In this document: positions 5,938 to 9,980 of the stretch, piece by piece
Position numbering within the stretch: position 1 is the stretch's first letter
Layout of the letters: every line of letters begins with the position of its first letter
NCBI GenBank assembly: GCA_001803645.1
Contig: MHDW01000193.1
Span: forward strand, 1,911 to 12,888
From: Nitrospirae bacterium GWC2_42_7
GTDB lineage: Bacteria > Nitrospirota > Thermodesulfovibrionia > Thermodesulfovibrionales > UBA6898
Direction of reading: 5' to 3'
DNA length: 10,978 bases
Position numbers and translations under genes: made by a program
Notes under the pieces: model-generated
Told to the model about the DNA's origin: nothing
Databases searched by the model: none
The model's input: the letters and a program-made list of their open reading frames with translations, nothing else

Positions 5938-6242
5938 TTTTAGGAATCCAAAAATTGCTTTAAAAAATTATTTAACCCGTTTTTTGTTGACCAGTTTTGT
6001 ATTTCTCAAATACGGCCAAAAAAATTCTTGAAATCCAAACTATAAACAGCTGTCTCTGCCACAGTTCCAAATTTCTGTCATTCTGGCTTGTCCAGAATCT
6101 TTCTTTGCTTCGGAAGGATTCCCGACAAGCGGGAATGACACTGAAAGAAACCAATCAATTTCCAGACGCTCTTCCGACTCTGCCGCAGGGTCTTCACAAT
6201 AATATTATTATGTTGGCTAGATATGAATTATAATAAACAACC
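5938..6242 (+). other. 305-nt intergenic stretch upstream of moeA
   Basis: This gap holds an A+T-rich segment without recognisable signals (5938-6050), then palindromic repeat copy A (6063-6196) and a short A+T-rich run into moeA. No gene is supported. A perfect TATAAT at 6229-6234 lies only 9 nt before the moeA ATG and has no matching -35 element, so it is not listed as a promoter. Confidence 0.7.
6063..6196 (+). repeat. Two-unit palindromic intergenic repeat, copy A
   Basis: This shares 56 of 60 bases in its first block (6063-6122) with 9795-9854, then 20 of 20 (6123-6142 with 9885-9904) and 27 of 33 in a tail block (6164-6196 with 9925-9957). It contains two small hairpins: ATTCTGG-cttgt-CCAGAAT and ATTCCCG-acaag-CGGGAAT. 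The 23-nt units 6077-6099 and 6117-6139 are inverted copies of each other (19 of 23), so the pair can also fold as one long stem. CTCTGCCrCAG occurs on both flanks (6054-6064 and 6178-6188). This is a REP/BIME-like architecture; I do not recognise a named family. Confidence 0.88.
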
Positions 6243-7743: not shown

Positions 7744-8808
7744 ATGAAGATAGCGATACTTACAAGAACAGGTTTTCATCATGCCAGTTTTATAAACAGA
7801 CTGCAGGAAGAGTTTGAAATTGCCTGTGTTGTAAGAGAGTCATATCCTGAGCAGAAAAAAGATAATCCGAGTAAGTCTTTTTTAAAAAAGATCGGTATCG
7901 GGCTCACTCAAGACGAGATATTTTTGAATGGTTTTTATGAAAAATACTCTGCCGGATTCAGGCATCATTCCGGATTAAAGGAATACCTGAAAGCGCCTTT
8001 TGATGTAGTGATCGAAAAGAAATCAACCAAATATCTAGGCATCAATTGTGGAGATATAAACAGTCCTGATATTGAAGTATTTCTGAAAGATATTGCCCCT
8101 GATATTATCGTAGTGCTTGGAAGCAGCATAATAAAGCTGAATATATTAACTATACCAAAAATTGCGATGATGAACATTCATACAGGCCTTTCCCCTTATT
8201 ACAGAGGCACATGGAGCTATGGCTGGCCTATTGTGAACAAAGAGCCTGAATATATCGGAGTGACGCTCCATCATGTAAATTCAGGGATTGATTCCGGTGA
8301 CATAATATATCAGACGAGACCGATGCTTAATGTTCATGATGACCTGAATACAATATTTCTGAAGGTGGTTTCTGAAGGTATAGAACTGGCTGTAATGGCT
8401 GTAAAAGAGATCCTGAAAAATGGTTCGATCAGATCTTATAAACAACCAGTTTCTAAGGAGTTCATAAGTAAGGCCCCCTCTCCCTGCGGGGAAGATAACG
8501 CCCCCGCCTTCGGCACCCCCTCTTTACCAAAGAGGGGGAAGGGGGAGTTAATTTCCCCTCCCTTGAGGGGAGGGCCTGCCTGTCCGGTAGGCAGGGATGA
8601 AGGGGAGGGTGATGTATGTGGCTTTACTAATGACCTCAGTAGTAATACAGGCAGGCTTTATCTTGCCAAGGACTTTAATGCAGAGATAGCACGCAGATGT
8701 CTGTCTAATCTTGAAGAAGGAATATTAGAGACATATATTCAGAAAAAGGATCAGTTCGACTCTCGGGTAAAACTATCTGGATTTATTCCTCCACAAATTA
8801 CAAAATGA
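7744..8808 (+). CDS. Formyltransferase-family protein (Fmt/ArnA N-terminal type) with an in-frame repeat insertion
   Basis: A 354-residue protein. Residues 1-235 form a formyltransferase domain: the Rossmann-like start MKIAILTRTGFHHASF, DIIVVLGSSIIK, the catalytic loop NIHTGLSPYYRG with N144 and H146, and GVTLHHVNSGIDSGDIIYQT with the expected catalytic Asp183. The N, H and D triad of 10-formyl-tetrahydrofolate-dependent enzymes is therefore present. It is not the tRNA enzyme by context or length of the C-terminal part. A sugar or amino-sugar N-formyltransferase is the better guess, because the next gene is a NodB-type deacetylase overlapping by ATGA. Residues 244-290 are encoded by a G+C-rich palindromic cassette and read as low-complexity Pro/Gly sequence. 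Normal-looking protein resumes at CGFTNDLSSNTG. The start fits beta strand 1, but only a weak GGA precedes it. Confidence 0.82.
   Translation: MKIAILTRTGFHHASFINRLQEEFEIACVVRESYPEQKKDNPSKSFLKKIGIGLTQDEIFLNGFYEKYSAGFRHHSGLKEYLKAPFDVVIEKKSTKYLGINCGDINSPDIEVFLKDIAPDIIVVLGSSIIKLNILTIPKIAMMNIHTGLSPYYRGTWSYGWPIVNKEPEYIGVTLHHVNSGIDSGDIIYQTRPMLNVHDDLNTIFLKVVSEGIELAVMAVKEILKNGSIRSYKQPVSKEFISKAPSPCGEDNAPAFGTPSLPKRGKGELISPPLRGGPACPVGRDEGEGDVCGFTNDLSSNTGRLYLAKDFNAEIARRCLSNLEEGILETYIQKKDQFDSRVKLSGFIPPQITK
8473..8613 (+). repeat. G+C-rich multi-hairpin cassette inside the formyltransferase gene
   Basis: About 141 bp, roughly 65% G+C by hand count, against about 40% around it. Three hairpins are clear: CCCCCTCTTT-acc-AAAGAGGGGG (8516-8538, 10 bp perfect), CCCCTC-cctt-GAGGGG near 8554-8569, and CCTGCCT-gtccggt-AGGCAGG near 8575-8595. 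Smaller dyads such as GCC-ttc-GGC precede them. There is no stop codon in the gene's frame, so the cassette adds 47 codons (A244-D290). The edges are set by composition and may be off by several bases. It looks like a palindromic repeat that entered a coding gene in frame. Confidence 0.8.
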
Positions 8809-9794: not shown

Positions 9795-9957
9795 AGTTCC
9801 AAACTTCTCTCATTCTGGCTCGTCCAGAATCTTTCTTTGCTTCTGAAGGATTCCTCTATGAGCCGTTGGCTTCGAGCCATAGGCCGACAAGCGGGAATGA
9901 CACTTAAAGTAATATTCAAATAATAGACGCACTGCGGTCTCTGCCGCAGAGTTTTCA
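9795..9957 (+). repeat. Two-unit palindromic intergenic repeat, copy B, split by a 30-bp insert
   Basis: This is the second copy of the element at 6063-6196, in the same orientation and again just after the stop codon of a rightward gene. The left hairpin is intact (ATTCTGG-ctcgt-CCAGAAT). The right hairpin is interrupted after GATTCC by 30 bp (9855-9884) and resumes at CGACAAGCGGGAATGAC. The tail block adds CTGCGG-tctctg-CCGCAG. It ends about 25 bp before the probable tRNA-Val promoter. Confidence 0.88.
9855..9884 (+). repeat. 30-bp palindromic insert within repeat copy B
   Basis: This segment is absent from copy A, where flanking bases join directly. It has CTATG and CATAG at its ends and the overlapping dyads AGCC-gtt-GGCT and GGCT-tcg-AGCC inside, so it can form alternative hairpins. 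It may be a separate small repeat nested in the larger one, or the ancestral arm that copy A lost. Confidence 0.75.
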
Positions 9958-9980
9958 TTGTAAATTTATTTTAAACAGAT

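Follow-up and report, generated by a model that had tools for sequence, protein, structure and literature searches.

A palindromic element, probably MITE-like, read in frame within a formyltransferase gene and other genes of a Nitrospirota bacterium

Background

How does a formyltransferase gene of a Nitrospirota bacterium come to carry a G+C-rich, hairpin-forming segment within its reading frame, and is that segment peculiar to this gene? The window, by which we mean the whole stretch of DNA analysed, comprises 10,978 nucleotides of a contig of Nitrospirae bacterium GWC2_42_7. A first-pass annotation of its sequence had placed about 141 bp of roughly 65% G+C hairpin DNA at 8473..8613, adding 47 residues behind the catalytic domain, and had proposed that an intergenic-type repeat entered the gene and was kept in frame. 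We have delimited this insert, compared it with homologous proteins, searched for further copies in the same genome and in relatives' genomes, and evaluated how such an element might arise and persist.

Results

The features of the locus are as follows (window positions).

7744..8808, + strand: formyltransferase gene, 354 aa, PF00551 at residues 107-213 (ORF list and family search); contains the element
8450..8645, + strand: element, full extent, 196 bp (inverted end matches, paired; fold z -4.9)
8452..8643, + strand: net insert relative to insert-free homologues, 192 bp, 64 codons, residues 237-300 (exactly missing in P0003-P0005; frame stop-free)
8450..8475, + strand: left terminal inverted repeat, 26 bp, TTACTAANNNNNTCATNAGTAANGCC with 1 mismatch (contig G000:C193:10360-10385)
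8620..8645, - strand: right terminal inverted repeat, 26 bp, TTACTAANNNNNTCATNAGTAANGCC on the opposite strand with 1 mismatch (G000:C193:10530-10555)
8516..8538, no strand: perfect 10-bp stem with a 3-nt loop (sequence inspection)
8575..8595, no strand: nested 21-bp palindrome inside a 22-mer (26 perfect genome copies of the 22-mer)

The composition and folding of the segment agreed with the original description. G+C content is 64.5% in 8473-8613 versus 37.6% in the remainder of the gene, the 141-bp stretch folds with a z of -3.4 and the full 196-nt element with a z of -4.9, and neither fold was equalled by any of 200 shuffles. The 10-bp stem described at 8516-8538 is exact, the palindrome is present at 8575-8595, and the insert is free of stops in the formyltransferase frame, as had been claimed. 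The open frame by itself is weak evidence because 7.6% of 5000 base shuffles were also stop-free in that frame. A chance open frame was ruled out by the repeats across the genome and by the gap that homologues display at the insert, and the insert is for these reasons more than chance. Residues N144, H146 and D183, named as catalytic, do not vary across an alignment of 56 sequences, the window protein among them, and all lie N-terminal to the insert. The position of the original insert thus stood; its extent did not. Because the imperfect 26-bp terminal inverted repeats at 8450-8475 and 8620-8645 are part of the element, the earlier boundaries were too narrow by about 50 bp, and the net insert is 192 bp and 64 residues rather than 141 bp and 47 residues.

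Homologues of the formyltransferase were used to establish whether the segment is ordinary protein. Of 394 found, 120 were listed and compared, and among these only two exceed 327 aa, namely the window protein (354 aa) and P0002 (340 aa), so that the segment is not a conserved part of the family. Three proteins of 290 aa lack the insert (P0003, P0004 and P0005, with aligned identities of 83, 83 and 78%). In them QP[V/Y] is joined directly to N[T/A]GRLY at the point where the window protein carries residues 237-300, confirming the predicted exact absence from close homologues and replacing residues 244-290 as its limits. A pattern count gave 3 residues from Q[PSA] to the next GR-Y motif in 72 of the 120 homologues, while 41 did not match the pattern; the other seven were P0001 (67 residues), P0002 (53), one protein with 5 residues and four in which the match begins at an earlier Q. 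P0002, which is 79% identical, carries an insert at the same site and with the same ends (TKEFIRKAPSP...GEGDVCGFTNDFSS), and its core is 14 residues shorter. Since the two proteins share site and ends, the insertion is most likely older than their split, and the core of one or the other has most likely been altered since by whole codons. The own genome has a single formyltransferase match at E<=1e-40, and 9 of 40 relatives' genomes have one each, in open frames of 286-312 aa.

An AlphaFold model was built from the 56-sequence alignment and reached a mean pLDDT of 77.2. Values fell below 50 in two stretches, residues 238-300 (the insert) and residues 38-51. Outside 241-300, 20 of 30 ten-residue blocks have a mean pLDDT of at least 85, and the blocks flanking the insert average 69 before it and 71 after it. 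Most simply, the model suggests that the insert is a disordered loop following the catalytic domain. The peptide would presumably be kept in the finished protein.

Searches of the own genome for further copies, as the first-pass annotation had proposed, demonstrated a dispersed family. The 141-bp query gave at least 44 matches at E<=1e-6 (self included), with 40 of 165 candidate places scored. The 26-bp end pattern, at up to 3 mismatches, occurred 29 times forward and 21 times in reverse, 50 in all, and the reversed control did not occur. For the 22-mer palindrome we found 26 exact copies and 4 with a single mismatch; its control gave none. A search with the translated 64-residue insert yielded 81 own-genome matches at E<=10, of which 20 were stop-free and lay in ORFs of 200 aa or more. 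Among these 20, two genes account for two matches each, one match reads a copy on the opposite strand, and the split gene L010 is also present. The consensus ends are ACTAA...TTAGT, and the 20 complete copies used below measure 130-265 bp. The assembly consists of 238 contigs, is 71% complete and has runs of N in some copies. The proposal of an intergenic-type repeat kept in frame within a gene is accordingly supported, and the notion of a single stray intergenic repeat gives way to a family with many in-gene copies. Elsewhere in the window, positions 6063-6209 and 9795-9970 hold a second dispersed repeat (TCATTCTGGCTTGTCCAGAATC...GGGAATGAC), the two being 93% identical over the first 60 nt.

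Conserved proteins with in-frame copies include RlmN, RimO, HypF, HrpB, DnaX and an ABC-F ATPase, and the copies sit at positions that in homologues are empty or hold a short loop. Structure alignments placed the extra stretches at 131 to 198 of RimO versus 129 to 134 of 4jc0, 151 to 224 of RlmN versus 158 to 169 of 3rf9, 205 to 263 of HypF versus 194 to 207 of 3vth, and 264 to 356 of the ABC-F protein versus 299 to 336 of 9vvi. For Mfd the alignment supports only the C-terminal side, because the copy precedes the aligned part. NCBIfam cut-offs were met by RimO, RlmN, HisF, Mfd, HypF, HrpB, DnaX and PBP1C, and the best NCBIfam models for the ABC-F protein and a DECH helicase scored below cut-off. 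Further in-frame copies were found in a radical SAM-like/SPASM protein (PF04055 just under its cut-off), between Wzy_C and TPR domains, ahead of an MlaA domain, in a TPR protein, twice in an AsmA-like ORF and in an aminotransferase that we take to be BioA. The copies in the MlaA, Mfd and radical SAM-like genes use the reverse frame. Copy L139, in another gene, contains a run of N. Where a copy sits at the start of an ORF (PBP1C, L025, the amidase-like ORF, the nitrilase-like ORF and L142), it may be an untranslated leader. One gene departs from the pattern: in L010, near 1411-1610, the frame changes within the copy and divides the host gene, which we presume to be glycosyltransferase-like.

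RlmN offered a second case for comparison with homologues. It is the sole RlmN locus of the own genome, its profile is interrupted between positions 152 and 153, and its two nearest homologues (P0121 and P0122) are without the insert. Insertions are often lineage-specific in both the formyltransferase and RlmN homologues. In three relatives' RlmN proteins (P0123, P0128 and P0151) the site of the own-genome copy is occupied by short inserts that differ from it. Judged from their residues, we read these inserts as palindrome-derived, and the loop behaves as if it tolerated repeated insertion.

Several in-frame stretches look like repeats of other kinds, and we excluded them from the copy count. 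HisF (L133:1166-2113, - strand) has about 47 extra residues relative to 4evz (153 to 203 versus 135 to 138), which include the 21-bp palindrome read as protein, without the ends of the element. HypF (L174:520-2910, + strand) has additional extra stretches relative to 3vth (375 to 428 versus 318 to 322, and 479 to 519 versus 372 to 380), which likewise resemble repeats of other kinds. The DECH-box helicase (L136:128-2560, + strand) and a second place in Mfd (L185:1597-4500, + strand) also hold in-frame, repeat-like sequence of a different type. Separately, a gene at L141:1502-2440 (+ strand), presumably encoding diaminopimelate epimerase, holds a repeat-like in-frame stretch of another kind (RNSEPGTQNLEVRTENSKLKTQNLELGT) close to its start.

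The relation between reading frame and core length was examined in 26 end pairs, collected at up to 6 mismatches per end, which is looser than the 3 allowed in the end-pattern count. Four pairs with N (L139, L172, L173 and L187) and two alternative pairings (L029:104-497 and L138:1421-1633) were left out, giving 20 copies, 13 in long ORFs and 7 not. All 13 complete copies in long ORFs have a core length divisible by three, versus 3 of the 7 others (p 0.007), and the used frame is stop-free in all 13, versus 2 of the 7 for frame 1 (p 0.001). Removal of the two ORF-start copies (PBP1C and L025) left 11 of 11, with p 0.011 for length and 0.002 for the stop-free frame. These p-values are overstated, because a copy is called in-gene partly on the strength of its open frame and because the same lengths turn up repeatedly in related copies; comparison with homologues is the weightier evidence. 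Both frame 1 and the second reverse frame are stop-free in 8 of the 13 long-ORF copies, and the remaining 5 are open in the used frame 1 only. The cores vary in length by modules, from 138 to 159 with the 21-bp palindrome and from 240 to 261. Forward in-gene copies have a slight third-codon-position excess (30/279 versus 38/540, one-sided p 0.047), which was rejected as a sign of selection because it is too weak.

Relatives' genomes revealed a second core between the same ends. The 141-bp query matched 18 of 40 relatives at E<=1e-5 and the insert peptide 9 of 40 at E<=0.001. The end pattern occurs in 46 of 61 genomes (own included) and the reversed control matches in many too; the pattern stands well above the control in, for example, G037 (13 vs 0), G028 (11 vs 0), G053 (10 vs 0) and G035 (8 vs 0). 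Both ends were present at 11 of 18 places taken from relatives, and 9 of these 11 have a different core, of the CATTCC...GGAATGAC type. All nine other-core copies lie between genes, with convincing coding sequence on both sides in none: in L246 the frame runs through and an apparent signal peptide begins downstream of the copy, and in L251 the downstream frame starts within the copy. The translatable core occupies the remaining two places, in frame within a 615-residue ORF in L247 and between genes in L255. A copy with a drifted second end (L259) is in frame in a gene that we take to encode methionyl-tRNA formyltransferase, and TrpE (L225) and a TPR/glycosyltransferase protein (L230) hold other in-frame copies in relatives. 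The second dispersed repeat of the window resembles this other core.

Discussion

The sequence-level facts comprise terminal repeats, a nested G+C-rich palindromic core, a frame free of stops on one or both strands, many copies, and in-frame sites within genes. We consider it probable that the segment is one copy of a palindromic, non-autonomous element, MITE-like in kind and carried by a Nitrospirota bacterium, whose sequence can be translated by read-through. As the best reading, it would work like the Rickettsia palindromic elements, with identity to them left aside. The MITE features seen are terminal inverted repeats, many copies, and a size of 130-265 bp (MITEs being about 70-300 bp) without a transposase gene. 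Counting against the MITE-like assignment, no target-site duplication was seen by eye in the flanks of the end pairs. Among the end pairs listed, none is long enough to encode its own enzyme or represents a parent transposon with the same ends. Mobilisation of the RAYT/IS200 kind lost ground when Y1_Tnp (PF01797) gave no match in the own genome, though at 71% completeness it may still apply; a control matched in 5 of 14 genomes. As to viruses, viral_contigs gave no match to one exact left-end pattern.

The mechanism that we envisage begins with an enzyme acting in trans, which would insert the element at short A+T-rich sites with no visible target duplication. In both cases compared, the formyltransferase and RlmN, the net insert equals the end-to-end length minus 4, and these two cases fit insertion within a short A+T-rich site without duplication. 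A copy in a gene would be retained only if its orientation, phase and length left the reading frame open and if the site could accommodate a loop. The peptide would then be made and tolerated as a disordered loop, and smaller palindromes may later be gained or lost inside copies, in multiples of three.

An unlikely alternative is gene decay, by which the insertions are recent and mildly harmful and their open frames are chance survivors on the way to pseudogenes. The frequency of lineage-specific insertions would suit it, and so would the gene split inside its copy in L010, which is also a point against the best reading. Decay is difficult to reconcile with the full-length frames and curated cut-offs of RimO, RlmN, Mfd, HypF, HrpB and DnaX, with the intact catalytic residues of the formyltransferase, or with an insert common to two proteins that have diverged to 79% identity.

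Rather less probable still is that the insert is present in the DNA and absent from the working protein, being removed from the RNA or bypassed in translation with the hairpin as signal. Its very stable fold and its presence inside conserved enzymes such as RlmN and RimO would agree with this, but neither process would need an open frame and cores in multiples of three in 13 of 13 long-ORF copies. The element also corresponds to no known RNA family, a search of the window against Rfam at the gathering threshold having returned two tRNAs only. Misjoining of repeats, for which a fragmented metagenome assembly (238 contigs, 71% complete) with N runs in some copies gives some occasion, is highly improbable, since misjoins would not leave frames open in many genes, the window-protein cluster counts 2 sequences on 3 contigs, a different protein of separate origin has the same insert site and ends, and similar in-frame copies are present in relatives' genomes.

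Beyond the MITE-like reading itself, we regard a wider proposal as evenly balanced. A mobile lineage in Nitrospirota may have evolved a core translatable from either strand that colonises both genes and spacers, a stop-containing sister core with the same ends would stay intergenic, and modules would nest in threes, so that copies grow and shrink as protein in conserved enzymes. If true, such a lineage would keep supplying new disordered loops to proteins outside the Rickettsiales. The material provides a comparison set of insert-free relatives, an insert-sharing relative and an intergenic sister core. With a translatable element in many conserved enzymes, this set brings two questions within reach of testing: does selection adapt a mobile element to being translated, and by what route does mobile DNA turn into protein that is tolerated?

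Comparison with known systems

Rickettsia provides the best-known examples of palindromes inserted in frame, and others have been reported from several bacteria. The parts of the literature that we searched hold no earlier report of such an element in Nitrospirota. The comparisons that follow are drawn from descriptions in excerpts of the cited papers. Rickettsia palindromic elements are described there as palindromic repeats of about 100-150 bp that lie in ORFs with the frame intact, at the same place in orthologues and in solvent-exposed parts of the protein (PMC3767692; PMC10969869). Excerpts of a further source count nineteen frames inside genes, report that a guanylate kinase bearing an insert is active, and list the terminal pairing as 12 bp (PMC2229807). 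Like the Rickettsia and Wolbachia palindromic elements, the inserts described here are in frame in conserved genes and unstructured in the model. Unlike the Rickettsia elements, they reside in a host outside the Rickettsiales, the nearest relatives of the formyltransferase gene being Nitrospirota, and, set apart by description, their ends are 26 bp and different-looking.

The two cores find a parallel in the Correia/NEMIS elements of Neisseria. In the excerpted account, a short open-frame form is fused within genes and a longer stop-bearing form is almost only intergenic, with a target duplication and a 24-bp terminal pairing listed (PMC2229807). The translatable and the other core resemble these two forms, but, as far as descriptions allow the systems to be compared, no target duplication was seen here. 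Intragenic REPs, palindromes with GTAG/CGTC, are described in part of another report as lying wholly inside ORFs of several bacteria, repair genes included (PMC3733652). Such excerpts give REPs as 20-40 bp long, state that one end carries GTAG or CGTC, and describe them as often close to genes for Y1 transposases. The present elements are likewise palindromes inside ORFs; unlike the REP/RAYT system, they measure 130-265 bp and end in ACTAA...TTAGT, with no GTAG/CGTC end. The ERIC and RU elements of enterobacteria are given in the excerpted source as MITEs with open frames fused in frame to genes and with a target duplication listed (PMC2229807). By description, the present elements are similarly MITE-like and in frame in genes, and differ in their hosts and ends. 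The kind of element, MITE-like and read in frame within genes, is already known; the present one would be a new member of it, from another phylum, the Nitrospirota.
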